Below, piece after piece: positions 8,281 to 24,880 of a stretch of DNA of 64,000 bases (within the stretch, counting starts at the first letter, position 1; each line of letters opens with the position of its first letter). The position numbers were made by a program, and so were the translations under genes. This DNA comes from a virus. The stretch spans positions 45,555 through 109,554 of IMG/VR virus record IMGVR_UViG_3300020439_000003; one strand, 5' to 3'. The notes below the pieces were generated by a model. It was given only the letters and a program-made list of their open reading frames with translations. It made no database searches and was not told where the DNA came from.

Positions 8281-8292
8281 ATAGAATACACG
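8281..8292 (-). promoter_or_regulatory. CGTGTATTCTAT promoter-like element
   Basis: A relative of the 12-mer at 5816 and 10258 (first eight bases identical), about 28 bases before ATG 8253. It supports choosing that start. Confidence 0.4.
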
Positions 8293-8306
8293 AGAATCTG
8301 CCCAGA

Positions 8307-9387: not shown

Positions 9388-9422
9388 AATTTAGATTCGA
9401 GAGATCAACTAATGAAAGAATG

Positions 9423-9972: not shown

Positions 9973-10044
9973 GATAATAAAAGAATGAAAGAGGGGAGGT
10001 CTCGCGGCAGGAGACACAATTATATAGACCCTCTATGTGATAGT

Positions 10045-10233
10045 TCAGCGTTGGAACTTGCCGTGCTTAAATGTAGCAAATTCAGGATTGTTGACCCAGC
10101 GACCCTGAGTGCAATCCCACACGATGGGCAGCGGTTCGGTCTGAGGAGTGTTCGGTGATGCCTTAGCGAGGACCTCACGGGACTGGGCAAACAGTTCGTC
10201 GAGAGTGTAGCGAGCAGGGCGGACGCCGTACAT
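10045..10233 (-). CDS. Small protein, unknown
   Basis: 62 residues. Starts MYGVRPARYTLDELFAQSRE, with a C-terminal DCTQGRWVNNPEF block. It stands alone between a promoter-like element (10258-10269) and the next gene, and a late-type octamer (CATAAATA) lies a little further upstream, so it could be expressed in both phases. No family recognised. Confidence 0.6.
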   Translation of the reverse strand: MYGVRPARYTLDELFAQSREVLAKASPNTPQTEPLPIVWDCTQGRWVNNPEFATFKHGKFQR

Positions 10234-10257
10234 GTGTTGTCTCCGTTGATTACCTAG

Positions 10258-10269
10258 TAATAATACACG
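10258..10269 (-). promoter_or_regulatory. CGTGTATTATTA promoter-like element
   Basis: Second exact copy of the 12-mer found at 5816-5827, here 25 bases upstream of ATG 10233. Confidence 0.5.
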
Positions 10270-10288
10270 CTCAGGGCGTGGTCACCAC

Positions 10289-10296
10289 TATTTATG
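10289..10296 (-). promoter_or_regulatory. Late-promoter-like CATAAATA
   Basis: One mismatch to the T4 late octamer TATAAATA. Lies between the P4H-like gene (ends 10301) and the 62-residue gene (starts 10233). Confidence 0.45.
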
Positions 10297-10300
10297 GACA

Positions 10301-10831
10301 CTAGGAGAACTGGACCCCAAGGTGTGGACAGATCGCACCGAGTGAGATACGAATATCTTTTGTAGGTGGATCTCCATCATGTTCTAGTCTTGAATCAAAG
10401 TAGATAATTCTACCTTGTTTGAATTCCACTTTCTCACCCGTTGCAAATGTCGTAGCACCACTATCCCCATAAGCATGGTAAATAACTGACGTTGCGGCAT
10501 GATTGTAATCAGTGTGGGTTTGACTAACATGCCCAGGATTTTGTGCATTGACCAATAACCTATGGACATGAGACAAAGGTAGATCAGCACATACATCTTT
10601 AATGATGCATTCATTGAAGTATGCGAAGAACCAGTACCAAGGAGTCTCCTCAGTAAATTCATTGTTTCTGATGACAGTATTACCCCAGAATCTTGCCTTT
10701 GAATAGTCACCATATGGAGTATTATTATAGAAGAAGGGGAAGTCTGTTGAGAGATAGTTACCTACGTCTCTCACCATCCAACTGGGGAAATAGTCATCAA
10801 TGACTGTTACTGTGGTATCTAAATGTGTCAT
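10301..10831 (-). CDS. Prolyl-4-hydroxylase-like 2OG-Fe(II) dioxygenase
   Basis: 176 residues with a full classical facial triad: H106-T-D108, H151 (LEHDG) and R161 (DIRISLGA) for 2-oxoglutarate. The strand GRIIYFDSRLEHDGD is typical of small P4H or phytanoyl-type phage dioxygenases. The N-terminus (TVIDDYFPSWMVRDV) matches the opening of many such proteins. It starts within the last four bases of the neighbouring oxygenase gene (ATGA), so the two are likely co-translated. Reaction: hydroxylation coupled to 2-oxoglutarate decarboxylation; the substrate is unknown. Confidence 0.82.
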   Translation of the reverse strand: MTHLDTTVTVIDDYFPSWMVRDVGNYLSTDFPFFYNNTPYGDYSKARFWGNTVIRNNEFTEETPWYWFFAYFNECIIKDVCADLPLSHVHRLLVNAQNPGHVSQTHTDYNHAATSVIYHAYGDSGATTFATGEKVEFKQGRIIYFDSRLEHDGDPPTKDIRISLGAICPHLGVQFS

Positions 10832-11439
10832 CGTTTAATCAATGGAATCTCAGTGCTCATTATGAAATTAGCAGATACAGTGATACGTTCACTATCCTCA
10901 CGTTGTGTGTCCACTTGGTGATGCAAATATGATGGGAAGATGAGTATATCACCTTCCTTACATTCAGGGAACCATGTATTAACCACTGGATAATGCTTAG
11001 AGAAGTATCCGAGGTGCATATTCTGATCTGGATTATAGAAGATGAACTTAGCATCTACCTCAGGATCATATTGTAAGAGGTATGCACAACTAAACGTGGT
11101 GTTATCTCCTCCACAATGTGTATGCACCTCCTGTGAATCACCCTTCTTATATACATTGATCCAACTTTCCGTCATTTCTATTCGCACGGTGGGTTTCCCA
11201 CCCAGTTGCTCATGCATATCATCTAAATTAGGACGTATTGCCTTAGCAAACACGTCCCACGAGAAGTCTTCATTATTGGTATCACTCTCAAAGGAGGATT
11301 GCAGTGTGCAATTCCACTCCCTCGGTTGTGATGTATTAGCGAATGCTAATTCTGATAGAAGTAATCCTTTGAGATACTGGTGTGCTTCAACTTCACCATG
11401 ATAGTAGAACTTAGGAAATAAACCTTGAACTTTACCCAT
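10828..11439 (-). CDS. 2OG-Fe(II) oxygenase-like protein (2OG-FeII_Oxy_5 type)
   Basis: 203 residues. Motifs in order: SWINVYKKGDSQEVHTH, a CAYLLQYD strand, GDILIFPSYLHHQV and SERITVSANF. These give an HxH pair, a third His and the 2-oxoglutarate Arg. Its ATG overlaps the helicase stop (TAATG) and its stop overlaps the P4H-like gene (ATGA), so it is locked between them. Substrate unknown. Confidence 0.8.
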   Translation of the reverse strand: MGKVQGLFPKFYYHGEVEAHQYLKGLLLSELAFANTSQPREWNCTLQSSFESDTNNEDFSWDVFAKAIRPNLDDMHEQLGGKPTVRIEMTESWINVYKKGDSQEVHTHCGGDNTTFSCAYLLQYDPEVDAKFIFYNPDQNMHLGYFSKHYPVVNTWFPECKEGDILIFPSYLHHQVDTQREDSERITVSANFIMSTEIPLIKR

Positions 11440-12683
11440 TATGCAACAAGAGAGAGGGGAGGAATGCCTTTGACGAAGATAGCATCAACAACATTTTGTA
11501 GACGCTTGACAACGTGAGCACCATAAGTCTTGTGGACAGGGACAGTAACGAAACCAGTTGGTTTGTTGTACAATCCCCACTCACATGCATTGAGTTCACC
11601 AGACTTCAAACGTGCAGCATCATCTTTATCTAGGCGAATAACACGACCGATAGTCTGTGCCATCTCAACAACATTCAAGTTGCGAAGAAGGATGCAGTGA
11701 GTGAGACCAGGGACGTTGATACCTTCGCTGAGGATAGAATAGTGGAACACGATGAACTTCTTAGAAGCATCCTTACCCCACTCAGTGAGAGTATTGAAGA
11801 ATACTTCACGAGATACTTTCACACCGTCGATGATAGCACCAAACTTAGATGTGACGTGCATGACACTGTAACCACGCTCTGCAAGTTGAAGCAGGAGTGT
11901 AGTCTTAGAGATCATGTTACCTAGCACGCGACTGCTAGGGACAGCGACGAGAACTTTGCTGGCGTGAGTATCATCGAGATTGTCAATGATGTCACGCACA
12001 GTGTCAGCATCAACGTCATGAATGTTGTGCTTTGTGCGAGTGTTGTCTGTTTCAAAGGGAACGATAGTTGGAGGGAGGATGTGACCCTGCTCAATCAACT
12101 CAGGTGCAGGAACGTTACAAATAACAGGACCATACACGTCGCTGTTGTTCATGGAACGACCATGCTTGCGAGCGATACGAGGAGTAGCAGTGAAGAAGTA
12201 TGCACGCTCAGAGAGATCAGAACATGCAGCAGTAGCAGCAAAGAAGTGACGAGTCACACTGTTGTGAGACTCATCAAAGTATGCAGCATTGATCTCAATA
12301 CCAGCATCAACAACTTTGTTCAAAGAGTGATAGGTAGTGAAGATAATGCAAGACTCACCTGCTGCACGCGCAGTGTTAGCGAACAGTGCAATCTTGTCAG
12401 ACTTGGTGCTGCTGAAATGCTGTGTCTCACCTGAGTGAGCATGACATACATGTGTCCATGTAGATGAAATAAACTGCATGAACTCGTCACACAGTTGATT
12501 AGCGAGCAGGATACGAGGAGCAACAACAACAATAGTCTGGGGACCGTTGTTGAGCAGTTGACGAGCGTGCTCGATCATGATGATGGTTTTGCCACCACCA
12601 GTAGGCACGATGACCTGACCCTTGTCAGCGGACTGCATAGCAGCGAGAGCGCGGGACTGGTGAGGGCGTAGGGTGATGGTCAA
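11439..12683 (-). CDS. Superfamily II DNA/RNA helicase (DEAD/DEAH-type)
   Basis: 414 residues. Motif I PTGGGKT (27-33), motif II DESH (137-140), motif III FTATP, and motif VI QTIGRVIRLD near residue 355 mark a complete SF2 helicase. The conserved RPHQ start lies at residues 6-9, so the N-terminus is right although it uses TTG; an in-frame TGA sits five codons upstream. It is shorter than T4 UvsW and lacks the UvsW N-terminal domain, so it is closer to type III restriction-like SF2 enzymes. Likely role: branch migration, recombination or RNA unwinding. A TATAAT -10 lies in its leader. Confidence 0.88.
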   Translation of the reverse strand: MTITLRPHQSRALAAMQSADKGQVIVPTGGGKTIIMIEHARQLLNNGPQTIVVVAPRILLANQLCDEFMQFISSTWTHVCHAHSGETQHFSSTKSDKIALFANTARAAGESCIIFTTYHSLNKVVDAGIEINAAYFDESHNSVTRHFFAATAACSDLSERAYFFTATPRIARKHGRSMNNSDVYGPVICNVPAPELIEQGHILPPTIVPFETDNTRTKHNIHDVDADTVRDIIDNLDDTHASKVLVAVPSSRVLGNMISKTTLLLQLAERGYSVMHVTSKFGAIIDGVKVSREVFFNTLTEWGKDASKKFIVFHYSILSEGINVPGLTHCILLRNLNVVEMAQTIGRVIRLDKDDAARLKSGELNACEWGLYNKPTGFVTVPVHKTYGAHVVKRLQNVVDAIFVKGIPPLSLVA

Positions 12684-12706
12684 GGCGTGTCTGTGTCAGT
12701 ACATAT

Positions 12707-12714
12707 ATTATACA
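12707..12714 (-). promoter_or_regulatory. TG-TATAAT -10 element before helicase
   Basis: A perfect TATAAT (12712-12707) preceded directly by TG, 24 bases upstream of the helicase TTG. No good -35 is seen. It overlaps the stop of the 44-residue gene. Confidence 0.4.
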
Positions 12715-12849
12715 TCACTCCTCGTCTTCCACCACCTCTTTGTGCCACTTCCTACACTGGACCTTGTATTCATAATATGGATCAATCCTTGCTTGTCTCT
12801 CCCACTCTTCACATTTCAAAATCTCTTTATAGAGTTTGTCATCATACAT
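12715..12849 (-). CDS. Small charged protein, unknown
   Basis: 44 residues; ATG 12849 overlaps the previous stop (TAATG). Rich in Tyr, Lys and Glu (YKEILKCEEWERQAR, DPYYEYKVQCRKWHKE). Function unknown. Overlap and codon pattern support it. Confidence 0.55.
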   Translation of the reverse strand: MYDDKLYKEILKCEEWERQARIDPYYEYKVQCRKWHKEVVEDEE

Positions 12850-13181
12850 TAGCGTGCCTCCATGTCTGGTAACATTTCATTGCCTGGGTGGTCATTAGTC
12901 TTACCACGGTATGCTTTCTTATGTTGAAAGTATGCTGGATCTAATTCTAAATCATCCCAGTCTTCTTCAAATATAACAATACAGCATTTAATCCATGGTG
13001 ACAATGCATGTGGATCCTCGTTAGGTTTCTTACTTATACACAGTGTGATGTATTCATCACTAACAAATTCAATAGTTCCCTCAAAACCCTGATACCTAGC
13101 AGGACACCCAGGTTGTACTGCTTTGATGATGTTCCTGATCTCGATAGGAACTGACTCGGAAATAAAGAGGGGAGTGCTCAT
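12849..13181 (-). CDS. Conserved phage protein, unknown
   Basis: 110 residues. Residues 15-60 look like a small SH3-like beta barrel (GCPARYQGFEGTIEFVSDEY, ITLCIS). A WIKCCIVIFEEDWDDLEL strand-turn follows. The tail is polar. The ATG overlaps the stop of the oxygenase gene upstream (ATGA). No enzymatic residues stand out. Confidence 0.7.
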   Translation of the reverse strand: MSTPLFISESVPIEIRNIIKAVQPGCPARYQGFEGTIEFVSDEYITLCISKKPNEDPHALSPWIKCCIVIFEEDWDDLELDPAYFQHKKAYRGKTNDHPGNEMLPDMEAR

Positions 13182-13795
13182 AGTGTTAGAAACGAAGTTG
13201 GGTTGCCATAGTTACCTTTGACCATGACATTAAATGCTAGTGAGTAACGTCTATTGTGATCCATGTTTGCTTCAACACAATGGACTAACTCACTAGGGAA
13301 TATGAGTACCATGCCTGTCTGTGGTGTGATTCTCCACGACTTAGCATTATATACATTTGTAGCATCACGACGTGGGTCAAGGTGTCGATGGCGTTGATCC
13401 ATGAACATAATATCACCACAATTAGGATGTGTCCTCAGATACACCACACCACTATACAAACTGTTACGATGTGAATGATCGTTAGCACGTTCCATGTGTT
13501 GATGCATGTTAATCCATGAACATGTGAAGTCAGTAGTGTGTGATATTGCATCAACACCCTGCACACCAAATACATATTCATCAACGTGTTCTTTTAACCA
13601 CGACTTGAAATCTAGGAACTTGTCTAGTATCTGTTGTTCAACAGTTTGAGCACCTAGATTATATCCTGATCTATCGTAGTTTCTAAATTCCAACTCATCA
13701 ACAGCATCCATGATGTTGGGCATCTCCTCATCAACTGTCACATATATTGGTGATGAGAACAGAGGGATAATCTCAGTCGGTAGTGAAGTTTGCAT
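13178..13795 (-). CDS. 2OG-Fe(II) oxygenase-like protein (2OG-FeII_Oxy_5 type)
   Basis: 205 residues. Begins with the family-typical IIPLFSSPIYVT. Later come SWINMHQHMERANDHSHRN (HxH), YSGVVYLRTHP, TGMVLIFPSELVHCVE and RRYSLAFNVM. This is one of seven members of this family in the window. Substrate unknown. It overlaps the P4H-like gene upstream by about 23 bases. Confidence 0.82.
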   Translation of the reverse strand: MQTSLPTEIIPLFSSPIYVTVDEEMPNIMDAVDELEFRNYDRSGYNLGAQTVEQQILDKFLDFKSWLKEHVDEYVFGVQGVDAISHTTDFTCSWINMHQHMERANDHSHRNSLYSGVVYLRTHPNCGDIMFMDQRHRHLDPRRDATNVYNAKSWRITPQTGMVLIFPSELVHCVEANMDHNRRYSLAFNVMVKGNYGNPTSFLTL

Positions 13796-14270
13796 TGATT
13801 AGAATTCTGTTCTTATGATATTTTGGTGAGTGTCCAGTATGCATGTGTTGACCATTAAATGTCAATAGTCTGTTTGCCTTTGGTTGTACCCGTTGAAAAC
13901 GACTGTCGGAAGGATCGCCAAGGATAATAGTATCTCCATCTGAATCATTAACATAGTAGATACACACACGATGAGGTTCTTTGCAATCAGTGTGAAAGTC
14001 ATGTCTGTATCCCTCTGGGTTATATAACGTCATATCTGCACGCACACGAAGACATGCAGAAGACCTAATAGTCTCCTGCATCTTCGCAACTAACTCACAG
14101 AACTGTGGATCACCTTCATCACTCAACCAGTGATTAAATCCATGTGCTTGTATATCATCACACCCATTGGTGAGAGTTTGTTGGTAGAACCAAGGAAACT
14201 CCCACCCAGTGAGTATAGATAACAGTTCTGCATGATAGTCATCATCAAGGAAGTTATCGATGATGTTCAT
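13773..14270 (-). CDS. P4H-like 2OG-Fe(II) dioxygenase (copy 2 of a duplicated type)
   Basis: 165 residues from ATG 14270; an upstream ATG at 14303 is less likely because it overlaps the previous gene more. The triad is H93-T-D95, H144 and R155. The block IYYVNDSDGDTI is almost identical to YYVNDSDGDTI in the gene at 15128-15691, and both start with a hydrophobic-acidic stretch then FPW(F/Y). The two are clear paralogues. Together with the adjacent JmjC-type genes they form a repeated cassette. Confidence 0.82.
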   Translation of the reverse strand: MNIIDNFLDDDYHAELLSILTGWEFPWFYQQTLTNGCDDIQAHGFNHWLSDEGDPQFCELVAKMQETIRSSACLRVRADMTLYNPEGYRHDFHTDCKEPHRVCIYYVNDSDGDTIILGDPSDSRFQRVQPKANRLLTFNGQHMHTGHSPKYHKNRILINANFTTD

Positions 14271-14433
14271 CTCTGAGATGTAAGGAGGTCGCAATTTCAT
14301 CAATTAGATTCCTTTTATGATCTGGAAGGTGACCAATCTTGTTGTAATAGTCTTTTTGAAGTAGGAATAGTGCGTGGCGCAGAAGCACCTTCTGCTCTGG
14401 ATTTAGTGTTGCAGTTTTAAGAAACATGGTCAT
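14254..14433 (-). CDS. Small helical protein, unknown
   Basis: 59 residues from ATG 14433 (GTG 14448 and ATG 14427 are alternatives). Helical (NPEQKVLLRHALFLLQKDYYNK). It sits between the two halves of the repeated dioxygenase cassette, overlapping the P4H-like gene. No family known. Confidence 0.5.
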   Translation of the reverse strand: MTMFLKTATLNPEQKVLLRHALFLLQKDYYNKIGHLPDHKRNLIDEIATSLHLRDEHHR

Positions 14434-14454
14434 AGGTGCAGAGACCACTACTAT

Positions 14455-15162
14455 TTAACGGTGGACCACTAAATTATAGCGTTTCCTGTCAGAACAGCAA
14501 CACCTTTTAGGGGTCCAAATTGGAAGAGATAATGAAAGTCTCGGTCCTTTGGTGTGTCGGGTGTTGTGGTATGCCCTTGCAGGAAAGTATAGCACATCCC
14601 CAGGCGTAAGTAAAGTGTCTATTGCTATTGTCAACTCATCCTCACTTGGTGTGTAGGGAGGATCTTCTCCTTCAATAAGATGTGATGCTCGTTCGTTATA
14701 TACTTGCCACCTCGTTTCTCCATCCATTTGTATGATGAAGTTGACGGGTTTGTCCCAGTGTGGTTTGAAACTTGGGTGCGAATTGTCAGCGCCATTAGTA
14801 ATAAAAATGTGACAGTCAGCACATCCATCAAAGGTCTCTTCAATCTTTGACAGTAACTCATCAACTTGTGGTTTACCATGACCATATTTACATATGTTAA
14901 TAGTATAACCCATATTAGCAAGTTCAAAGAGTTCTTGCTTCTTTGGTACACCCATATAAAACCATGGTTCTTCCACCTGTTCCAGATCCATACGTCTACC
15001 ATTATCATCAATCACTGTGATAACGTGATTCCATGGAGCATTCAGGGCATCTTCGGCATCTTGCCATGTAACAAATGGTTCAATAGCATTGCGCCACACT
15101 CGTGGACGATCGTCTGCCTGATATACCTCAGGATTGAGAAACTCTGGGTTTGAAATTAACAT
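14455..15162 (-). CDS. JmjC/cupin-type Fe(II)/2OG oxygenase (copy 2)
   Basis: 235 residues from ATG 15162, chosen because it aligns with the start of the paralogue at 15675 (FLNP at residues 8-11 and (R/K)VWR at 21-24 in both). Likely iron ligands are H135-W-D137 and H199 (ARAYH), with the strand NFIIQMDGETRWQVY between, as in the JmjC/ROXA-type ribosomal oxygenases and cupin_4 proteins. Such enzymes hydroxylate protein side chains such as Arg, His and Asn, which makes a protein substrate attractive. It overlaps the upstream P4H-like gene by 35 bases. Confidence 0.8.
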   Translation of the reverse strand: MLISNPEFLNPEVYQADDRPRVWRNAIEPFVTWQDAEDALNAPWNHVITVIDDNGRRMDLEQVEEPWFYMGVPKKQELFELANMGYTINICKYGHGKPQVDELLSKIEETFDGCADCHIFITNGADNSHPSFKPHWDKPVNFIIQMDGETRWQVYNERASHLIEGEDPPYTPSEDELTIAIDTLLTPGDVLYFPARAYHNTRHTKGPRLSLSLPIWTPKRCCCSDRKRYNLVVHR

Positions 15163-15691
15163 TGAGTGCAATCCTATATCCTGTGGTGGGTGATGATGAT
15201 GCATGTAATACATCACCTTTGAATACAACCATCTTGCCACGCTCAGGTGACACTCTCAACTGACATTGACGTTGAAATATACTCATCTCATCAGTGAAGA
15301 AGATAGTATCACCATCACTATCATTCACATAATATAATGCAGTGATGTGTTCTTCTTCAAAGTCTACATGTGGACAGTGATGTTCTAGTTTGTCAGGTAG
15401 TAGGCAACCAAGGCGAACGCGATAAACATCAGAAAAATCTTGACCAGCAGCATCAGCAATAATCCTCAAAGCAGATTCAAATAGATCGTAGTATTGTGAG
15501 ACAGGTTCATAGTCCATCACCACAACATGTGAGAATGAACTGTTATCAAACCTACCTTCATATGGTCGATACCCACCATCAGCAAACGTGGTCTCTTTAA
15601 CAAGATACCATGGGAACTGTTGTTGTGTTACAAGTCCCTCAATCTGATCCTGAATAATATCAGGCAATGGATAATCAGAACTCAATAACAT
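15128..15691 (-). CDS. P4H-like 2OG-Fe(II) dioxygenase (copy 1)
   Basis: 187 residues from ATG 15691. Iron and 2OG residues: H108-V-D110, H163 (VLHASSS) and R173 (GYRIALNV). Shares YYVNDSDGDTI with its paralogue at 13773-14270. The open frame continues upstream inside the JmjC gene but has no better start. Predicted to hydroxylate an unknown substrate together with its JmjC partner. Confidence 0.82.
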   Translation of the reverse strand: MLLSSDYPLPDIIQDQIEGLVTQQQFPWYLVKETTFADGGYRPYEGRFDNSSFSHVVVMDYEPVSQYYDLFESALRIIADAAGQDFSDVYRVRLGCLLPDKLEHHCPHVDFEEEHITALYYVNDSDGDTIFFTDEMSIFQRQCQLRVSPERGKMVVFKGDVLHASSSPTTGYRIALNVNFKPRVSQS

Positions 15692-16379
15692 ATTGCTTAC
15701 GGTCGCTGGGTACATCACGGGGATACATGCAAGGGATAGACATTGATAGACGCTTACCACCAGGGAATGGTTTGTGATACGTTCTAGCAGGGATGTACAT
15801 AACATCTCCCTCCTGTAATACTGTATCCAGAGCGATAGTTAGTTCCTGACCTGCCTTGTCTGGTAGATAAGGTTCGTCTGTCATTTCGATCAGACCACTA
15901 CATCTCTCCTCGTATACATTCCAGTGTGTTTCACCTTCAATCTGACAAATAAAGTTAGGTGGTAGATCCCAGTGAGCACCAAATGACTTGCTGCCCTCCT
16001 TAGCACTACCAAATATATGTGCGTCACAATTACAATCAAACATCGCTTCAATGTTCTCCAACAGATTATCTACTGCTGGATTGTAATGACCATACTGTTC
16101 AATGATAAATGTATGACCTTCATTGATTGCTTGGAATAGTTCTTCCTTGTGTGCCACACCTTGTTCATACCATACTTCAAATTTCTCAGGTAGCATCAAT
16201 CGACGACCCTCAAAGTTGAGGATCTGGGTTCTATAATACCATGGATTATTAAAACAGTGTGTGACTGTATCCCAGTTGACATACTGTGAGAGATTATCTA
16301 ATGCCTTACGCCATACCTTTGGTTTATCACCACACACAAACTCCTTAGGATTGAGGAATGGTAGTATCAATTTATTCAT
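15675..16379 (-). CDS. JmjC/cupin-type Fe(II)/2OG oxygenase (copy 1)
   Basis: 234 residues from ATG 16379. Ligands H136-W-D138 and H202 (PARTYHKP). Shared blocks with the copy at 14455: NFI.Q..GET.W.VY.ER, ELTIA.DT.L and GDV.Y.PAR.YH. The C-terminus ends in a short RKQYVIEF strand. Its stop-proximal end overlaps the P4H-like partner by 17 bases, the same arrangement as in the second cassette copy. Confidence 0.8.
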   Translation of the reverse strand: MNKLILPFLNPKEFVCGDKPKVWRKALDNLSQYVNWDTVTHCFNNPWYYRTQILNFEGRRLMLPEKFEVWYEQGVAHKEELFQAINEGHTFIIEQYGHYNPAVDNLLENIEAMFDCNCDAHIFGSAKEGSKSFGAHWDLPPNFICQIEGETHWNVYEERCSGLIEMTDEPYLPDKAGQELTIALDTVLQEGDVMYIPARTYHKPFPGGKRLSMSIPCMYPRDVPSDRKQYVIEF

Positions 16380-17037
16380 GTAAATCACCCTCAGATTGGT
16401 CAATAGAACAACCTGCTACATTGATACTAATAGCAATACGTTCACCTACTGCTGGTTGTGTGCGATGCTTCAACCATGATGGGAAGATGAAGTAATCAAA
16501 TGATTTTGAAGGTTGTGTGTTCCACTTCAAATCACTACCACAATGTGTTCCATCGTCAGAAATATCATAGTCAAATTCTAGTGGTGTCATGCGAAGAATA
16601 TCTTCCAGAGGATTCTTGAATTGAAGATGACCATGCTCTGGATCTTTCTGCAAGTGATAAACAATACTCACATGTGATTTACTACGTTGACCACTGATGT
16701 GACAATGTTCTCCTGTTGTATCACCATCGTTATGCAAATTTGCCCACATACTATCAATGTAGACATGCAAATCTCTCCTATAATTTAGTGTCCACTTCCA
16801 ATACTCATGAGCAGCAACCATCACTGGATGTAGCATCCAGTCAAACTCTTCATGGTCAAATAGTTCTTTACCACCTAACAATCCACCAGTAGACTTACCG
16901 TCTTCTAGTGCCCATGAACCACGAGTAGTTTTCGACCAGTATTCATCGTAGAGTAATCTCTTAGTTGCTTCTAACTGCTCGGGGGTTGGTTCTATGCTGC
17001 CACGACAGATAGGAGTATCAAATAGTCTGCTTAGCAT
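16372..17037 (-). CDS. 2OG-Fe(II) oxygenase-like protein (2OG-FeII_Oxy_5 type)
   Basis: 221 residues. N-terminus LFDTPICRGSIEPTPEQLEA. Core motifs: SMWANLHNDGDTTGEHCH (HxH), SIVYHLQKDPEHGHLQF, FDYFIFPSWLKHRTQP and ERIAISINVAG. Longer insertion between the first strand and the third His than its relatives. Overlaps both neighbours. Substrate unknown. Confidence 0.8.
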   Translation of the reverse strand: MLSRLFDTPICRGSIEPTPEQLEATKRLLYDEYWSKTTRGSWALEDGKSTGGLLGGKELFDHEEFDWMLHPVMVAAHEYWKWTLNYRRDLHVYIDSMWANLHNDGDTTGEHCHISGQRSKSHVSIVYHLQKDPEHGHLQFKNPLEDILRMTPLEFDYDISDDGTHCGSDLKWNTQPSKSFDYFIFPSWLKHRTQPAVGERIAISINVAGCSIDQSEGDLHE

Positions 17038-17695
17038 TCTTCCTAATAGTATTGTACAAGTTTTCCTTGTTTCTCACTGGTACGAAATTAAATGAGATAC
17101 TAATTCTATCATCCTCTGTCTGATTGTCTCGCACAGCATGAGGAACCCATGCAGGAAATAAGAATAGTCTACCAGCAAGTGGTGGATATTCATATGTAGT
17201 ATCAGTATGTGGCACTGCTGCGGTAGACATATCCTCAGCAATACCAAGAGAATGGATTAGATAACCCTCAGTATGATCCTTATAGAATACTAACTTACCA
17301 CACTCACCCTCTGGTACTTTGACATAAAAGACACCAGACATCACAGCACCAGGATGTACATGGACCTCGTTATATCCTCCATGTCCATTGATGTTCATCC
17401 AGACATTTGCATACTCAATATGTGACATCTCTGCCCCATATGTACCAAATGCTATCTCTGCATTCTTTTTAATAACATACAGCAGTTTCTTAAACTCATC
17501 ACCTTCAAGTGATTCGTCATTCAATATCTGCTCACCCAAATAATCGGGAGACTGATAGTTCAGTTCTCCACGATTACTACGGTATTGACCTTCATTATTG
17601 TTCGCAATATCGAGAACAATATCAGTCATTGCATTGACATCAATATCTAGATCAGTCCACCACACAGGCGTGGGGAAAATATAATCAAGATTCAT
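17018..17695 (-). CDS. 2OG-Fe(II) oxygenase-like protein (2OG-FeII_Oxy_5 type)
   Basis: 225 residues and the most canonical member of the set. Starts with YIFPTPVWWTDLDID; then NVWMNINGHGGYNEVHVHPG (HxH), SGVFYVKVPEGECGKLVF, GRLFLFPAWVPHAVRDN and DDRISISFNFVP. It follows the 159-residue coiled-coil protein with a shared base at the start-stop junction. Substrate unknown. Confidence 0.85.
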   Translation of the reverse strand: MNLDYIFPTPVWWTDLDIDVNAMTDIVLDIANNNEGQYRSNRGELNYQSPDYLGEQILNDESLEGDEFKKLLYVIKKNAEIAFGTYGAEMSHIEYANVWMNINGHGGYNEVHVHPGAVMSGVFYVKVPEGECGKLVFYKDHTEGYLIHSLGIAEDMSTAAVPHTDTTYEYPPLAGRLFLFPAWVPHAVRDNQTEDDRISISFNFVPVRNKENLYNTIRKNAKQTI

Positions 17696-18174
17696 TACTT
17701 AGTCTTATTCAGTTCTTCGTCAGTTGCTGCTTGATTGCTCTCCCAGTTACTAAACTTGGAGTAATCCTTACCTTTCTTACTGTAAGGAGAGTTGGTCTTA
17801 ACTTTGACCAACTTACGCTTCTCTTGGATCTCACTTTCAATCCAAGGTTCAGGATCAACACCCATGACAAACTGACGGTAGAGGTTAAGTGTTTCCAGTC
17901 CACCTTCCAGTTTCACAATCTCATCACGAAGTGCATTCATTTGAGTGAAGTCAACACGAGTCTCTTCTCTATCAAATGACATTGCACTCAATGCTTCTTG
18001 GAGTTTAGAATACTCATTGTATTTCTCACGATGTTGATACATCAGGTTACGCCAGAGATCATCAAAAGACTTGACTGCTTCCTTTGCAGATTCAACTTCT
18101 TCGATGAGTTCGGGCGGAAGGTCCACTTCAAGTGCTTCTTCTAGCACTTCTTGTGATACATTTTCCTCAGACAT
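17695..18174 (-). CDS. Coiled-coil-like protein, unknown
   Basis: 159 residues from ATG 18174, two bases after the halogenase stop (the frame is open up to 18237 inside the halogenase). Residues 20-95 are charged helices with heptad character; the C-terminus is polar and basic (KKGKDYSKFSNWESN). Similar short helical proteins beside tail-fibre genes can be attachment-site or assembly proteins, but that is only context. No known domain. Confidence 0.65.
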   Translation of the reverse strand: MSEENVSQEVLEEALEVDLPPELIEEVESAKEAVKSFDDLWRNLMYQHREKYNEYSKLQEALSAMSFDREETRVDFTQMNALRDEIVKLEGGLETLNLYRQFVMGVDPEPWIESEIQEKRKLVKVKTNSPYSKKGKDYSKFSNWESNQAATDEELNKTK

Positions 18175-18176
18175 AA

Positions 18177-19766
18177 TCATTCCTTGTAAATAGTGTTCTT
18201 TTGGAACTGGTAGGACGACGGTAAAGTCATACACCAATCATACATCTCTTTGTCCCATTCGTCAAACCTCAGTTCTGCTGTTAGTAGTTCTTCGGCATCG
18301 ACTCGCGGATCGAGACTGTTCTGTAACCTTTTCAGGGTCAACGTGTGATTATTTAGTGGGTTGAATCCCATGCCTGCTGCAATATACCTCAACCCATCAT
18401 TGTGTGCTGGATCACCAGCAAACTCATAGAGCACATGCTTCTCGGATGCATATCTCATGAAGAGATTATCAAGGGCACCAGTAGAGAAATCATAATCTAT
18501 TTCATTAGAAACATACTGCCAGTATTCTGTCTCTCTATTAGAGAAAGCATAATGGGCAGCAATGAAGTTTTTGAATCCTTCAATCTCTAAATCGTTGACT
18601 ATATTTAGCATGTCAACTTCTACCCTAGGAACGAATCCTTGACGCCCTGAGAGGTTATTACATAGGCGTATGATCTGTTCATGGGTAACAAGCAGTCCCG
18701 TCGCTTCTAGGGGTTCTACGAAGCAGTTAGAGAGACCAACTGCACATACATTCTTGACCCATGATTTCTCATGTTTACCATTTCTAAATGGTACATGGTT
18801 GAATGATGCTTTATCAGCACGTTCTTTACCTCTGGTCTTAATCAGATAGTTATACAGTTGATGTTCTGCCTCACCCTTAGTTGCAAACCCAGATGAGTAT
18901 ACATATCCAACACCAGATCTCTCCCACAGTGGTACATCCCACACCCAACCATTATCAATGGCAGTGCAATTTGTACTGTTAGTAATCTCTGTCTCCTTAT
19001 CTACATGTGGCATGTGACATGTCACAGCACTATCATTAAGAAGGCAACCACCACCATCTTTGTGGAATGAAACAAAATCTTGCTTCATGAATCCACCAAG
19101 TAAGAGTGATTTGAATCCAGTACAATCAATATACAGATCATACTCAAACTCACGATCATCGTCAGTGATTAGTTTAGTAATATATCCTTGACTGTCTTTC
19201 TCACAACGAGCAATGTTACCTTGATGATAATCAAGACCCAAAGGTAGACACCAGTTGTTCTTCAACCACTGACCAAACTTAATGGCATCCATGTGGTATG
19301 CAGTGTCTGCTTCAAAGTGAAACCTAGGGTCATCAGTTAGTTTATTATGATGCGCCAGTTGTCCCACTAAGTTGTGAAGACGTGCGAATGATTGTCTTGG
19401 ATACTTCTCTGGATTCTGTAAATTAAGAGAGAACCATGACATCCACCCATGTGGACATAGTTCTAGTCTCTCTTGTGCAGATCCAAAAGGATAATCCCAG
19501 GTCTCTCCTTCCTTATAGAAATCATTGAACCTGATATTAGTTTTATATGTGGATCCAGTATCTTTCATCCACATATGATCTTCTAAACCAAGAATGGCAA
19601 AGAAGTCATTGATCTGACCCAAAGTAGATTCACCTACACCAATAACAGGGTAGTCTGGTGATTCAATCAGTGAAGTTTTAATATGTGGGCAAAGTTTCAA
19701 AAGGGCGGCAGCGGTCATCCAACCAGCAGTGCCGCCCCCCACGATGAGGACATTACGAATTTGCAT
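18177..19766 (-). CDS. Flavin-dependent tryptophan-halogenase homologue
   Basis: 529 residues, the usual length. FAD-binding GGGTAG (10-15) follows VLIV; GVGEST at 43-48. Lys75 in TYKTNIRF aligns with the catalytic Lys of tryptophan halogenases. The halogenase-diagnostic WxWxIP motif is present as W274-V-W276-D-V-P. DCTGF at 214-218 fits the FAD site. These enzymes use FADH2, O2 and halide to make HOCl or HOBr held by the Lys, then halogenate an indole. No flavin reductase is seen nearby, so it would rely on host FADH2. It lies between adhesin-type genes and a block of hydroxylases, which hints at a Trp residue on a protein as substrate; this is inference. Confidence 0.9.
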   Translation of the reverse strand: MQIRNVLIVGGGTAGWMTAAALLKLCPHIKTSLIESPDYPVIGVGESTLGQINDFFAILGLEDHMWMKDTGSTYKTNIRFNDFYKEGETWDYPFGSAQERLELCPHGWMSWFSLNLQNPEKYPRQSFARLHNLVGQLAHHNKLTDDPRFHFEADTAYHMDAIKFGQWLKNNWCLPLGLDYHQGNIARCEKDSQGYITKLITDDDREFEYDLYIDCTGFKSLLLGGFMKQDFVSFHKDGGGCLLNDSAVTCHMPHVDKETEITNSTNCTAIDNGWVWDVPLWERSGVGYVYSSGFATKGEAEHQLYNYLIKTRGKERADKASFNHVPFRNGKHEKSWVKNVCAVGLSNCFVEPLEATGLLVTHEQIIRLCNNLSGRQGFVPRVEVDMLNIVNDLEIEGFKNFIAAHYAFSNRETEYWQYVSNEIDYDFSTGALDNLFMRYASEKHVLYEFAGDPAHNDGLRYIAAGMGFNPLNNHTLTLKRLQNSLDPRVDAEELLTAELRFDEWDKEMYDWCMTLPSSYQFQKNTIYKE

Positions 19767-19769
19767 AAA

Positions 19770-20378
19770 TTAGTCTTCTCTGACTGTCTCAGGATGTTCA
19801 GTTACTGCTTCACCTAGTTCGGGGTTAGTATCTACTGCTTCGGCAGATGCAGGGGCAGTAGTAACAGGTTGATCTGCCATAGTTTCAGCGGCAGGTGCAT
19901 CATGAAGATCAGGGTTGTATGCACCAACCTTGAACTCTTTCTGTGCTTCCACAGGAATCTCAAACTCAGTCAACCATGAAGGAATCTCTTCACTATGAGG
20001 GAAGGGTTCGTTAGGCAGAACTTTGTTACCTTCTTCATCATATTCAACCTCAGGGAGTTCAGTCTTCACACCAGCAATGTGCTTGAAGAATTCACCACCC
20101 TTAGCAGCATCGCCGAAGAGTCCTGCTTCAATATCTTTATACAACTTGGACAGTTGCATACCAGGATCACCATATGCAACGATACGGAGAGTCTCAGGAT
20201 CATGGAATTCAAAGTCAGGAATCCACTCACCAAGTTCAAGTTTCCAGTCGATAGTACCTTCGTCAGGAATATCGATCCATCTCAAACCAGAACCAGGTCC
20301 AGTGTAGACTTCAAACTCTTCACCTTCGTTGATGATGTCTGTAATAAATCCGTCTGCGCGGACAAGTGCTCTTTTCAT
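19770..20378 (-). CDS. Unknown protein with acidic Ala/Glu/Pro tail
   Basis: 202 residues. Residues 1-60 begin KRALVRADGFITDIINEGEEFEVYTGPG and include RWIDIPDEGTIDWKLELGEW, a beta-rich start of the sort seen in tail-fibre-associated phage proteins. The last 45 residues are low-complexity (Ala, Thr, Glu, Pro). Lies three bases before the halogenase gene and directly after the glycine-rich adhesin, so it could be a fibre assembly factor or a fibre part. No catalytic motif. Confidence 0.65.
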   Translation of the reverse strand: MKRALVRADGFITDIINEGEEFEVYTGPGSGLRWIDIPDEGTIDWKLELGEWIPDFEFHDPETLRIVAYGDPGMQLSKLYKDIEAGLFGDAAKGGEFFKHIAGVKTELPEVEYDEEGNKVLPNEPFPHSEEIPSWLTEFEIPVEAQKEFKVGAYNPDLHDAPAAETMADQPVTTAPASAEAVDTNPELGEAVTEHPETVRED

Positions 20379-20384
20379 TGTTCT

Positions 20385-21185
20385 TTAATCGAATTCGTAA
20401 ACGACAACAATACCCTGACGACCGTCGCCGCCACGTTCTCTGTTTCTAGCAGAAGAACCGCCAGCACCGTAAGCAGCATGACCTCTATGGCGCTGCGCCC
20501 ACTGTTGCTGTCTGTGAGAAGTTGGTGAAGAACCACCCCAGAAGGAGTGTCCACCATGACCGAGACCAGGAGGATTACGGTGACCCTGTGAAGAACCACC
20601 ATAGATTCTTACAGCACCCTGAGAGGGGTTACCACCAGTAGATCCATCATGTTGTTGTCTACGGTTGGCACCCTGTCCACCACCAGATGAACAGTAGTTA
20701 CCGAAACTTGATGTACCACCATTGCCACCACGTTGAGAATAGTTAGTACCACCACCTGCACCACCCACGGTCACAGAGATAGAGTTAATGTTCTGAACGT
20801 TGACAATCTGCTCAGTGTGTGCGCCAGCAGCACCAGATTCTCCATAACCTGATCCACCGCCACCACCAGCAGTACACATAACCCAGATACGTTTAATACC
20901 TGTGGGTTTGTTCCAAGTGGAGTTACTATTGTACACTGAGATAGACTTAGGTCCACCACCAGTTTGTACAGTTGCCCACGACATCGATGTGCCGTTGGTA
21001 GAGAGATACTTACCTGATTGTCCCGAGATAGATGGGATAACCTGAGAAGATGAACCACCGATAGTTCCATTGATTACGATGTTACTAACGGTAAGAGTAC
21101 CGTTCACAGTAATAGAACCAGAACTGAGGTTAAGTCCACCAGAACCAGATAGGTCTCTAATTGAAGATACTTTAAGGGTACTCAT
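20385..21185 (-). CDS. Glycine-rich tail adhesin-like protein, copy 1
   Basis: 266 residues. N-terminal 70 residues are repetitive beta (SSGSITVNGTLTVSNIVING), followed by an STWNKPTGIKRIWVMCTAGGGGGSGYG block. The C-terminal half is extremely rich in Gly, Ser, Asn, Arg and Gln. It resembles the Gly-rich receptor-binding proteins (gp38-type) of T-even phages. A near-identical paralogue precedes it. A perfect late promoter (TATAAATA, 21217-21210) and an AAGGAG ribosome-binding site precede the ATG. Predicted virion tip adhesin. Confidence 0.8.
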   Translation of the reverse strand: MSTLKVSSIRDLSGSGGLNLSSGSITVNGTLTVSNIVINGTIGGSSSQVIPSISGQSGKYLSTNGTSMSWATVQTGGGPKSISVYNSNSTWNKPTGIKRIWVMCTAGGGGGSGYGESGAAGAHTEQIVNVQNINSISVTVGGAGGGTNYSQRGGNGGTSSFGNYCSSGGGQGANRRQQHDGSTGGNPSQGAVRIYGGSSQGHRNPPGLGHGGHSFWGGSSPTSHRQQQWAQRHRGHAAYGAGGSSARNRERGGDGRQGIVVVYEFD

Positions 21186-21209
21186 TGATTACTAGGTCTC
21201 CTTCGTTGT

Positions 21210-21217
21210 TATTTATA
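21210..21217 (-). promoter_or_regulatory. T4-type late promoter TATAAATA
   Basis: Perfect octamer on the minus strand 25 bases upstream of the ATG at 21185; it overlaps the last codons of the upstream paralogue at 21218-22021. AAGGAG lies between it and the start. Confidence 0.75.
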
Positions 21218-22021
21218 TCAAATGAATTCGTAGACTACGATGATGCCTTGGCGTCCATCACCACCACGTTCTCTGTTACGACCTGAGGAACCACCAGCAC
21301 CATAGGCAGCATGTCCTCTGTGACGTTGTGCCCATTGCTGCTGTCTGTGTGCAGTTGGAGATGCACCGCCCCAGAATGATCCACCACCATGTCCTAGACC
21401 TGGGGGATTTCTGTGACCTTGACTTGACCCTCCATAAATTCTAACAGAACCTTGTGATGGGTTCCCGCCTGTGGATCCATCGTGCTGCTGTCTGCGATTT
21501 GCGCCTTGACCGCCGCCTGATGAGCAGTAGTTACCAAATGATGACGTTCCACCATTGCCAGCGCGACCACTGTAATTAACACCACCACCACCGCCACCAA
21601 CTGTAACACTAATCGAGTTGATATTTGTGACATCTACAAAAGACTCCGTGTGAGCACCAGCAGCACCTGATTCACCATAACCTGAACCACCACCGCCACC
21701 AGCAGTACATTTAACCCAGATACGCTTAACTCCACTAGGTTTGTTCCAAGTGGAGTTACTATTGTATACCGAAATACTATTAGGAAGACCTAAGTTACCA
21801 CCACCTTGTTGCCAAGAGATAGTAGAACCATTGGTGTAAAGGAACTTACCGCCTTGACCCGACTGTGATGGAATAATATATCCAGAGGATCCAGTTACGT
21901 TTCCGTTAATAACAATATGAGTTACATTGAGAGTCCCGTTCGCAGTAATAGAACCACCAGAGAAGGACATACCCCCTTGGTTACCTAGATCTTTTACTTG
22001 TGCTACATTTAGTCGAGTCAT
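21218..22021 (-). CDS. Glycine-rich tail adhesin-like protein, copy 2
   Basis: 267 residues, same length and layout as copy 1. Blocks such as NSTWNKP, the Gly-rich AAGAHTE region, SSFGNYCSSGGGQGANRRQQ and GRQGI.VVYEF are shared nearly unchanged. Differences concentrate in residues 1-90 and in a few loop positions. This is a recent tandem duplication. The ATG overlaps the stop of the 247-residue oxygenase gene. Confidence 0.8.
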   Translation of the reverse strand: MTRLNVAQVKDLGNQGGMSFSGGSITANGTLNVTHIVINGNVTGSSGYIIPSQSGQGGKFLYTNGSTISWQQGGGNLGLPNSISVYNSNSTWNKPSGVKRIWVKCTAGGGGGSGYGESGAAGAHTESFVDVTNINSISVTVGGGGGGVNYSGRAGNGGTSSFGNYCSSGGGQGANRRQQHDGSTGGNPSQGSVRIYGGSSQGHRNPPGLGHGGGSFWGGASPTAHRQQQWAQRHRGHAAYGAGGSSGRNRERGGDGRQGIIVVYEFI

Positions 22022-22761
22022 TGTTGTTGATCTAACTCTTTTCTTTTATTTAGTTGTTCAGCACCTACATGTTGAAGTGGAACAACCCTGAACGCATACT
22101 TACCATTATCTAGGATCTCGGGAATAAAGTTCATACTAATAGTAGTACGTCCCTTCCAGAGATTGAAGACACCTTCATAACCATGCACAGTCTCTGCTGA
22201 CCATATAAACAGACAACCTTCTTGTGGTTTGGTCTGGTGAACTTCCTTTGTATATTTATTACCCTCGTTTGCTATACGAGGTGATCTCATCTGTTGAATA
22301 ACTGGATGTCCCTCTTTCTGAGGTACACGATAGAAATCCAAAGGTGAATGAATCTTGGGATCAAAGTCAACAAAATATGTACCAACGATGATACAGTTGT
22401 TGTGATTGTGTTTGATCTGCCAACAATGCTCTTTCGAGCAATGATTCAACCAACAGTCAGTAATCAATAGATTAGATCCATTGAGTTCATATTCTAACAC
22501 ATCAGTGAAGTAGTCAGTCGCTGCGTCTAACAGAAACTTCTCAAAGTCTTTGAATCGATCATCATAACGTAAAAGATTACTATTAGAGATATTAAAGTAA
22601 TGGTGCAGATTCTCCTCTGCTACATTACTATTCCACTCAGGATGCCCTGGTTGTATCTCATCAATGATCTTATGACATACTTCCTTGATAACCTCATTGT
22701 CGCCATCATAATAATACTTCCCAAAGACTTGTGGGAAGTATTCTTCAAGTTCACGTTTCAT
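22018..22761 (-). CDS. 2OG-Fe(II) oxygenase-like protein (2OG-FeII_Oxy_5 type)
   Basis: 247 residues, embedded between two tail genes with 4-base overlaps on both sides. Motifs: ITDCWLNHCSKEHCWQIKHN, HNH triplet (HxH), IVGTYFVDFDPK, EGCLFIWSAETVHGYE and GRTTISMNF. The iron-site order is as in its relatives. Its position between a fibre and a glycine-rich adhesin makes a virion protein a reasonable substrate candidate. Confidence 0.8.
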   Translation of the reverse strand: MKRELEEYFPQVFGKYYYDGDNEVIKEVCHKIIDEIQPGHPEWNSNVAEENLHHYFNISNSNLLRYDDRFKDFEKFLLDAATDYFTDVLEYELNGSNLLITDCWLNHCSKEHCWQIKHNHNNCIIVGTYFVDFDPKIHSPLDFYRVPQKEGHPVIQQMRSPRIANEGNKYTKEVHQTKPQEGCLFIWSAETVHGYEGVFNLWKGRTTISMNFIPEILDNGKYAFRVVPLQHVGAEQLNKRKELDQQQ

Positions 22762-24011
22762 CTATTATGTTGATTAGTTGATAACAAATAGTAACTTCCG
22801 ATACTGTATGCACCACCGTCATTGAATCCGATGTTGCTAAGGTTTTTCAAGTTGTTTCTTGATCCACCGTACATATTTAGATAACCGCTGTCAGAGTAGT
22901 CACCGTTAGGTTCAGAGTGGGTGTTGTCTCTCAACCACCACTTTCCACCATCAGGTACACGCCACTCACCAACATTGTTACCACCATAGTCAGATGACCT
23001 CATAATACGAGAGGTGTAGTTACCTCCACCACCGTTCTTGAAGACAGCGCCACACCCAACAAAGAAGTTAGGCCAGTTACCTCCGTTGACGATTGTAGCA
23101 TAGTTAGCAGCAGCACGCCATGCATACTTGGAGCGACCATAGAACATATCAAGACCAAAGTCAACACCAGAGTGATACTGACCATTGTAATTCACACTAC
23201 GACCACCACCATTGATGGGATAGAAGTCATAACCACCACCATCCTCTGTGGTATCAACATACATTTGCAGTGCGTTGGGCATACTGTGTGACTGGATCCA
23301 GTATGTTCCATTGCTATTGCAGTGTCCATATTCTACACCAAACTTACCAGATTCAAGTGGAGAACTAGGTGAACTACCATTACCAAAGTTTAGTTCAGAT
23401 GCATTAACAATCTCTAACTTAGCATGGGAGATATAATATGCTTCGTCGCCTCTACTTTGGTTCAGTCCAGTATAGTGTTCAATACTAATACTATTAGAGG
23501 TATGTTGTCTCCAACCAGATGAAAACTTAATATACCCCATTGATGAGTCATTAGAACCGTTCCATGGTTCATAACTATAATCAACGTTGAAACGTGCTAA
23601 CAATACAGGAGAAGTTTCAGACTGGTTATGGTCACAGTTCATCTCTCTGAATCTGTTCTCATTCCAGATCTTACGCCAGTTAGCAATACGATTGCCATCA
23701 ATGTTGACGTATTGATACTCATTATCCCATGAGTCAACATGGTGAATAACACACGAATACTTAATGTATTGGTGTGATGGTAATCCACTCAGGTTGAGTG
23801 TATAGGATCTAGGAGATCCACCCCAACCGTGCCAATATCCTGTGCTAGAAAACTCAGGACGTGCGTACATACTGGAATACTCACTACGATTCCAGTTAGA
23901 GAGATAGTTACGACAGTCGTTTCCTTCGTCGTACCAAACTTCTCGTTGAGCAAAACCTCCGCCACCACCGCCGCCGATAGTAGCAATTTTAGCGAGTCCA
24001 ATACTAGGCAT
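22758..24011 (-). CDS. Tail-fibre-like protein with fibrinogen-like C-terminal region
   Basis: 417 residues. A Gly-rich N-terminus (IGGGGGGG) is followed by a beta-rich section with HHVDSWDNEYQYVNIDG and RFNVDYSYEPWNGSND. Residues about 225-275 read GTYWIQ, then ALQMYVDTTEDGGGYDFY, which matches the start of fibrinogen-related domains (YWI...YCDMxTDGGGW). The remaining part is rich in Trp, Gly and Asn. Such domains bind sugars in eukaryotes. I infer a receptor-binding fibre. Overlaps the oxygenase gene by four bases. Confidence 0.7.
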   Translation of the reverse strand: MPSIGLAKIATIGGGGGGGFAQREVWYDEGNDCRNYLSNWNRSEYSSMYARPEFSSTGYWHGWGGSPRSYTLNLSGLPSHQYIKYSCVIHHVDSWDNEYQYVNIDGNRIANWRKIWNENRFREMNCDHNQSETSPVLLARFNVDYSYEPWNGSNDSSMGYIKFSSGWRQHTSNSISIEHYTGLNQSRGDEAYYISHAKLEIVNASELNFGNGSSPSSPLESGKFGVEYGHCNSNGTYWIQSHSMPNALQMYVDTTEDGGGYDFYPINGGGRSVNYNGQYHSGVDFGLDMFYGRSKYAWRAAANYATIVNGGNWPNFFVGCGAVFKNGGGGNYTSRIMRSSDYGGNNVGEWRVPDGGKWWLRDNTHSEPNGDYSDSGYLNMYGGSRNNLKNLSNIGFNDGGAYSIGSYYLLSTNQHNR

Positions 24012-24013: not shown

Positions 24014-24880
24014 TTAGTCGTTATCTTCAAATCCTTGTGGGTTCAAGAACACTCTCCATGTAGCACCATCTAGGTAGAAGAAGAAGTTCAAGAGATCATA
24101 TCCATTACCAGGCGAGTATCCACCGTTTAATGTAGCAGTCTGACCGTTGATTTGTACACCATTGAGGTTACCAGACGTAGCAGTTGCTTGTCTAATTAGA
24201 ACCTGTGCAACATACATAAAACCAGCAATGTTAGGGACATTCTGGAAATTCAATGTAAAGTTGTTAGTATATGTAGTGGGATTTTGAGTTTCAAAGATTT
24301 GTGCCTGTGAATGATCCAAAGCAACTGTACTTGACAGTGCGAAAGAAATCATTCTTTCCTTGGTTTGACCAAACTCAAAGGTCGAACCAGCAACCATTCT
24401 CAGATGGTTGTTAACAGCAGCGTAGTTGAAATATCTATATGCTGAGAGATCTTCGTCAACACCAATCAGTGTCCACGTTGCATTATTCTCAATAGTAACA
24501 GTACGACCGTTAGCAATAGTAATAGGAGCAGCAGAGAAACCGTTGCTAAACTCTATACCATTGTTAGCACTTGGACCAATAGTTAAGTTTTCATTGATAG
24601 TAGTACCGTTAGTTCTGATAATAGAATCCTCACCAACAGATGGTCCACCACCACCAACATCGTCCCAACCAGGAGAACCAGGACCGTTGACATCAGGGAG
24701 ATAACCCTGAATCATTTTCTCAGTTTCGTTATATACAATCGTACCGAGAGCAACAGTGCCTAGTGCATTGATTTCAGTCTGGTTGAGATTAGGCAAGTTG
24801 ATCTGCTCTGTGACAGTCAGGGCGGTGATGATCGCCCTTGTCGCATCGCTAATCTGATTACCTATAATTTTTGTGGACAT
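24014..24880 (-). CDS. Tail-fibre-like structural protein
   Basis: 288 residues. Starts with a helical-turn segment (DATRAIITALTVTEQINLPNL). IVYNETEKMIQGYLPDVNG matches a motif common in phage fibre tips and trimeric adhesins (a Tyr/Asn-based strand). The C-terminal part is beta. It precedes the fibrinogen-like protein in transcription order. Exact role unknown. Confidence 0.7.
   Translation of the reverse strand: MSTKIIGNQISDATRAIITALTVTEQINLPNLNQTEINALGTVALGTIVYNETEKMIQGYLPDVNGPGSPGWDDVGGGGPSVGEDSIIRTNGTTINENLTIGPSANNGIEFSNGFSAAPITIANGRTVTIENNATWTLIGVDEDLSAYRYFNYAAVNNHLRMVAGSTFEFGQTKERMISFALSSTVALDHSQAQIFETQNPTTYTNNFTLNFQNVPNIAGFMYVAQVLIRQATATSGNLNGVQINGQTATLNGGYSPGNGYDLLNFFFYLDGATWRVFLNPQGFEDND

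Follow-up and report, generated by a model that had tools for sequence, protein, structure and literature searches.

Why would a cyanophage keep a halogenase and a long row of oxygenases beside the genes of its tail adhesins? This question is raised by a 64,000-nucleotide (nt) stretch of viral DNA (hereafter the window; positions 45,555 to 109,554 of IMGVR_UViG_3300020439_000003), part of a 109,554-base cyanomyovirus IMG/VR record whose closest GenBank relatives are the cyanomyoviruses S-WAM1 and S-SZBM1. Between positions 10301 and 22761, eight open reading frames (ORFs) of the 2-oxoglutarate (2OG) oxygenase type, two JmjC_2 ORFs and one complete halogenase gene all lie on the minus strand, many of them overlapping, together with two Gly-rich adhesin genes (Table 1). 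An earlier sequence-only reading of this DNA had picked out the block, its single strand and overlaps, its two JmjC-type enzymes and its complete halogenase, all of which we recovered; it had counted seven 2OG-type genes, the eighth being the ORF at 10301, which has no Pfam match and is assigned from its phrog_274 similarity and an HTD...H...R motif. Its interpretation, a system that modifies virion adhesins, is partly supported: we put at about 0.62 the probability that the block is a tail-adhesin maturation operon, whose enzymes hydroxylate and halogenate the adhesin tips before assembly. The 2OG oxygenases and halogenase of cyanophages have so far been assigned to DNA repair, to nitrogen signalling or to antibiotics, with published proposals of DNA repair or 2OG sensing (PMC3037559), antibiotic protection (PMC2984593, PMC9964418), host-metabolism reprogramming (PMC9602691) and, in S-SSM6a, a metabolite cluster (PMC7824862). 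A literature search, with most subscription journals outside its coverage, returned no paper tying the halogenase or the oxygenases to tail proteins or adhesins.

The sequence-only reading had staked its proposal on linkage to adhesins in related genomes, and this linkage held. In the direction of transcription, the window reads tail fibre protein (F), fibre-associated protein, virion structural protein (V), oxygenase (o), two adhesins (A, A), chaperone-like protein (c), halogenase (H), small helical-hairpin protein (u) and then o-o-J-o-J-o-o, where J is a JmjC_2 enzyme. Gene order was read from all fetched loci using profiles built from the window proteins. One order recurred across many Kyanoviridae, A-A(-A)-c-H(-H) with oxygenases after it and, in the majority of cassettes, JmjC too: it is kept in S-WAM1, S-SZBM1, P-RSM6, S-CREM1, Syn9, Syn10, S-RIM44, P-TIM40, Sf-FR1 (whose cassette is without JmjC) and many IMG/VR contigs. 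The small protein u follows H in most cassettes and stands at the cassette end in the S-RIM44 type. Over 139 loci, the median gaps were 10 nt between A and c and 16 nt between c and H, and adhesin-linked halogenases reached down to ~36% identity with the window halogenase.

Linkage was sampled from three anchors: the adhesin, the tail fibre protein and gp13, the gene that follows the cassette site in the S-RIM44 group. When anchored on the adhesin, all IMG/VR loci with at least 5 kb past the last adhesin had c, H, oxygenases and J. The fibre anchor says nothing about the halogenase, and here A, c and H were present in 51/51 contigs with at least 4.5 kb downstream, the sample being the 80 best matches, which are biased toward window-like fibres. 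At gp13, 50 informative loci divided into 10 with both adhesin and halogenase, 0 with the adhesin only, 11 with a halogenase only and 29 with neither; 2/11 of the halogenase-only loci (L218 and L220) are cassettes cut off upstream, and the other nine are without this adhesin. One of these nine (L236) groups closely in the halogenase tree with Sf-CH11, in which a related halogenase and three annotated oxygenases lie between two Gly_rich_2 adhesins of another type, a second kind of adhesin linkage. A tblastn search of GenBank found the adhesin in 19 phage records, 19/19 of which also carry a VirX1-clade halogenase, and the fibre homologue in 460. Finally, in nine complete cassette genomes, 30/56 PF13759 genes (4.8 expected) and 9/10 JmjC_2 genes (0.9 expected) fell within the 16 kb starting at the adhesins, these genomes being mutually related, so that p-values are nominal. 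Chance clustering of the cassette genes is ruled out by gene order and linkage together with these counts. Two stricter propositions fared differently: that the halogenase always accompanies this adhesin is contradicted by S-B64, S-MbCM6, Syn1, P-SSM2 and many contigs, and that JmjC genes are confined to the cassette is nearly true, with exceptions in Syn30, S-P4, S-E7 and Sf-CH1b.

The block is also exchanged as a unit. In S-RIM44 (NC_047734), a 10.9-kb region (5720-16469 of locus L121, adhesins to JmjC) carries two halogenases and three adhesins along with c, oxygenases and JmjC; the same site in isolate KX349297 is taken up by a few different small ORFs. The gp13-side sequence is 96.6% identical between the two right up to the module boundary, and megablast with the S-RIM44 region returned only five records, all carrying the module. 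This replacement of a whole region between isolates means that adhesins and enzymes are gained and lost together. Altogether, with the gene order shared by many genera, the linkage between adhesin and enzymes is very strong and old, and it gives good support to a system tied to the virion adhesin.

Two other arrangements were seen in passing. In loci L071 and L072 (1-21461), three halogenases and many 2OG genes converge with an opposite-strand c-A-V-A, that is, a rearranged cassette. The Pelagibacter phage HTVC008M (locus L128 1665-9380; NC_020484 55083-65157) has, within ~10 kb, a Gly_rich_2 protein together with a distant halogenase (27% identity) and five 2OG oxygenases by annotation; in this phage, whose host is different, the cluster may be an independent occurrence of the association.

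The window halogenase is a full-length homologue of VirX1 (6QGM). It has the full-length PF04820 fold of flavin-dependent halogenases and keeps the GxGxxG (GGGTAG) and WxWxxP (WVWDVP) motifs, the catalytic Lys (K75) and Glu, and the EPLEATGLL segment; its halogenating activity is predicted by homology to VirX1. VirX1 is a crystallised iodinating flavin-dependent halogenase of cyanophage Syn10 that halogenates many small aromatic substrates in vitro (PMC8407142). It is identical at every residue except the start to Syn10 CPUG_00131, which comes second among the halogenases of that phage's cassette. VirX1 is known as a small-molecule iodinating biocatalyst, and the literature searched gives neither its natural substrate nor its operon context; a review names no biosynthetic cluster for it and describes its active site as wide and accessible (PMC8407142), which would be expected if the substrate were a protein loop. 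In the halogenase tree, a strongly supported clade of 69 sequences has 66 members near the adhesin, 1 away from it and 2 on fragments whose length does not allow a judgement; other adhesin-linked clades consist of the first halogenases of H-H pairs. The flavin halogenases MibH and SrpI act on ribosomal peptides and are a precedent for action of such enzymes on peptide Trp, their substrates being short peptides, not virion proteins. A halogenase with 2OG-Fe(II) dioxygenase and cupin-like genes likewise occurs in the S-SSM6a-type cluster of jumbo cyanophages, which differs from the cassette in its carbamoyltransferases, its distant halogenase (~25% identity) and its proposed product, a metabolite or glycan (PMC7824862).

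The proposed substrate is the adhesin. The AlphaFold2 (AF2) model of adhesin 1 had a mean predicted local distance difference test (pLDDT) score of 85.7, with each 10-residue block past residue 80 averaging at least 84. A Foldseek search with this model returned the Pam3 cyanophage fibre (7ypx, E 1.6e-8) as best match among solved structures and Syn9 gp38 as best match among predicted viral structures; the Pam3 fibre was found only by fold, since a sequence search of solved structures gave nothing significant. The adhesin is thus predicted to have the Gly-rich distal domain and fibre-tip fold of the gp38/Pam3 gp24 type, and it shares with Pam3 gp24 and T-even/S16 gp38 a Gly-rich loop lattice and, with Pam3, the position of a chaperone or chaperone-like gene right after (PMC9608196). 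Whereas the distal loops are hypervariable in Pam3 gp24 (PMC9608196) and in T-even gp38, the cassette tips are conserved and His-rich, and oxidising-enzyme genes follow them. Adhesins 1 and 2 are 90% identical in the tip and 59% in the N-terminal 100 residues; tip identity is 84-92% among paralogues and across three phages, against 56-61% for the N-terminal 100 residues of the paralogues. In a set of 48 divergent adhesins, residues E117, Y150 and F162 never vary, and conservation reaches 92% or more at N175, H180 and H203. Among these related sequences, His accounts for 5.0% of tip residues where the cassette has JmjC and for 3.2% in the Sf-FR1 type, which is JmjC-negative; other Gly_rich_2 proteins have 1.4%. 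The conserved tip residues and the His pattern suggest residues kept for modification, with His, Asn, Tyr, Trp and Arg as plausible targets; Pro, which the sequence-only reading had also listed, makes up 1.7% of the tip and has no special support as a target.

Syn9 gp39 (locus L119 6672-7850) is longer than its Syn10 counterpart, which has normal length at the same position, and it contains an adhesin tip that seems to be partly duplicated in tandem, with shifted-frame stretches. One P-TIM40 adhesin (locus L122 5694-7283) has a long C-terminal extension, fibrinogen-like by eye (GDGVYWIDLPG...), that resembles parts of the window V protein.

Two groups of enzymes accompany H. Both JmjC_2 proteins keep the iron ligands HxD...H (as HWD...H), and for the 15675 protein, the only one of the two tested, the nearest solved structures were the histidyl hydroxylases NO66 and MINA. 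The window enzymes share with the ROXA/NO66/MINA family (PF08007) the JmjC_2 domain and the HxD...H ligands, and are shorter (242 and 261 aa against 341-489 aa in the solved members). Full-size ROXA, NO66 and MINA also have C-terminal dimerisation and winged-helix domains, so the resemblance is in the core domain only, and the window enzymes are tied to a phage adhesin rather than to ribosomal proteins. Among the 2OG oxygenases, the ORFs at 10828, 13178, 16372, 17018 and 22018 reach the Pfam cut-off of PF13759, whose solved homologues 3BVC and 2RG4 carry no assigned function, and the ORF at 15128 reaches that of PF13640. The phrog_274/PF13640 members (13773, 15128, 10301) have HxD...H...R. In PHROGs and RefSeq, phrog_274 is labelled 'DNA endonuclease V'; because the window members have HTD/HVD...H...R, two of them with PF13640 similarity, this label is doubtful and looks wrong, the members resembling 2OG oxygenases. 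The family also occurs at locus L119 16421-16939 and 17544-18128 and at locus L117 17696-18226.

Between adhesin and halogenase, c has a short N-terminal domain and an 'AYGDxGxQLDMLYKDI' segment, as in tail-fibre assembly (TFA) chaperones. In Pam3, the chaperone gp25 is encoded after the fibre; its N-terminal domain has 55 residues, and its C-terminal domain is helical and lies over the distal loops (PMC9608196). Protein c matches it in size and layout, and its length, motif and gene position fit a TFA protein. No significant match to c was found in Pfam or the PDB, and we therefore regard it as a putative chaperone. The AF2 model of u is a helical hairpin with confident core helices (37-64 and 76-104), poor ends and a predicted template modelling (pTM) score of 0.54.

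These elements probably fit together as follows. Gly-rich adhesins of the gp38/Pam3-gp24 kind would be made for the fibre tip, and c, as a dedicated TFA-like chaperone, would hold the unfinished tip, whose side chains would be oxidised in the cytoplasm of the host, ahead of assembly. Hydroxylation, most likely of His and Asn, would be the work of the JmjC and 2OG enzymes, and the VirX1-type halogenase would add a sea-water halogen to Tyr, Trp and perhaps His as aromatic targets. None of the enzymes would be packaged into the virion, the modified tip would bind the cyanobacterial surface, and the enzyme set would be exchanged with the adhesin as one module. For halogenation of the adhesin specifically, we see roughly even odds; that cyanophages use a dedicated halogenase-hydroxylase operon to make receptor-binding tips whose side chains bear hydroxyl groups and iodine, bromine or chlorine, and that VirX1 naturally acts on a virion adhesin, could equally turn out either way.

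Several points weigh against this proposal. Gene linkage reveals functional ties, not chemistry, and the hydroxylation and halogenation chemistry is a prediction. The PF13759 members over the Pfam cut-off read HxH...H...R, not HxD...H, and their activity is not assured. No flavin reductase to supply the halogenase was recognised nearby, and the His enrichment of the tips is not phylogenetically independent. S-B64 has A and c with the halogenase far away, so a halogenase is not strictly required beside the adhesin, and many contigs have related halogenases without this adhesin nearby. Virion proteomics of S-SZBM1 (30 proteins listed) found fibre proteins 51-54 but not the adhesins 48 and 49, and no cassette enzyme was among the virion proteins (PMC9146016); the tips of these adhesins should yield several tryptic peptides of suitable size. 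The lack of enzymes in virions fits action before assembly; the missing adhesin peptides could reflect modified peptides, low copy number or absence, and decide nothing.

The same linkage might arise if the enzymes modified the host surface or small molecules, for example by changing lipopolysaccharide or capsule against superinfection or progeny trapping, and travelled with the adhesin since the two deal with one receptor. Exchange as a block together with the adhesin suits any function coupled to receptor specificity, the in vitro substrates of VirX1 are small aromatics (PMC8407142), and cyanophages do have cell-wall and glycan genes (PMC9602691). We nevertheless consider this unlikely: the operon annotation is without a glycosyltransferase, transporter or export gene, relatives of JmjC_2 act on proteins, a chaperone-like gene sits between adhesin and halogenase, and the tips and their His content resemble a constrained protein substrate. 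It is less probable still that auxiliary genes simply gather at a variable adhesin locus without a shared function. The adhesin site does differ between close relatives, and cyanophages have many 2OG genes at other sites, even when they lack the cassette, but such a hotspot predicts varied cargo and order, whereas the order is fixed down to ~36% halogenase identity, gaps are ~10 nt, the block is exchanged as one and JmjC_2 genes are nearly confined to it. Least probable is a halogenated, hydroxylated secondary metabolite or antibiotic that shields the host or is toxic to rivals, as proposed for PrnA-like genes and the S-SSM6a cluster (PMC9964418, PMC2984593, PMC7824862): the S-MbCM6, Syn1 and P-SSM2 halogenases (23-30% identical) do sit amid metabolic genes, away from adhesins, but scaffold-building enzymes were not recognised in the operon, the tie to adhesin and chaperone-like gene is invariant, and metabolite-type clusters use a different, distant halogenase group.

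If the block is indeed an adhesin maturation operon, the natural substrate of VirX1 would be named and the many 2OG oxygenases and the halogenase of these cyanophages explained. Halogenation of virion proteins would be a new phage means of setting host recognition, and the cassettes would be a source of protein-halogenating and hydroxylating enzymes. The idea is cheaply testable, because virion mass spectrometry of cassette phages is already published.

At the downstream end, the block is broken by a helicase gene (11439-12683) and by an ORF of 110 aa (12849-13181), which puts the ORFs at 10301 and 10828 outside the core cassette; S-WAM1 has a comparable 2OG-type pair past the helicase. The sequence-only reading had added oxygenases at 4508 and 8307 (PF13759) and a prolyl-4-hydroxylase-like gene (36270, PF13640) beside cpeT (35795). 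These genes exist, but nothing links them with the cassette as conserved in other genomes, and cyanophages that lack the cassette commonly have 2OG genes as well, so the three are not to be counted in; a single system of all window oxygenases was accordingly rejected. Upstream, the oxygenase at 22018 does lie between V and the adhesins, as it does in P-RSM6 and in contigs ordered 'V o A A', but the 'fibrinogen-like' description given to V drew no support from a Pfam search of the 22758 protein at E 0.05, and PHROGs assigns it as a virion structural protein. The S-SZBM1 homologue of F, S-SZBM1_52, was detected in virions by mass spectrometry (PMC9146016).

Table 1. Genes of the cassette and its flanks in the window, in the direction of transcription.
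Feature	Coordinates	Strand	Basis and remarks
F: tail fibre protein (phrog_529)	24901..28479	-	PHROGs E 0; upstream boundary of cassette
Fibre-associated protein (phrog_29506)	24014..24880	-	matches virion protein S-SZBM1_51 in position and size
V: virion structural protein (phrog_15727), optional	22758..24011	-	PHROGs; only some cassettes have V
o: 2OG oxygenase, optional, between V and adhesins	22018..22761	-	PF13759 E 2.6e-8
A: Gly-rich adhesin 1, proposed substrate	21218..22021	-	PF21722 E 3e-8; Gly_rich_2 / phrog_863
A: Gly-rich adhesin 2, paralogue of adhesin 1	20385..21185	-	Gly_rich_2 / phrog_863
c: chaperone-like protein (phrog_1787), putative role	19770..20378	-	found between A and H in every cassette read
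H: flavin-dependent halogenase, VirX1 type	18177..19766	-	PF04820 E 7e-93; VirX1 6QGM E 7e-110
u: small helical-hairpin protein, conserved in cassette	17695..18174	-	AF2 model
o: 2OG oxygenase	17018..17695	-	PF13759 E 1.5e-23
o: 2OG oxygenase	16372..17037	-	PF13759 E 5e-9
J: JmjC_2 enzyme, HWD...H	15675..16403	-	PF08007 E 1.4e-16; PDB match E 3e-5
o: 2OG oxygenase (phrog_274, HVD...H...R)	15128..15805	-	PF13640 E 3e-7
J: second JmjC_2 enzyme, HWD...H	14455..15240	-	PF08007 E 9e-18
o: 2OG oxygenase (HTD...H...R)	13773..14303	-	phrog_274 E 1e-45; PF13640 26.2 bits, cut-off 27
o: 2OG oxygenase, last gene of core cassette	13178..13795	-	PF13759 E 2e-20
Two 2OG-type ORFs past helicase (10301-10831 and 10828-11439)	10301..11439	-	membership uncertain

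Elsewhere in the window, a TnsA-like N-terminal endonuclease domain (46656-47156; PF08722, E 3e-23) was found amid T4-like structural genes.

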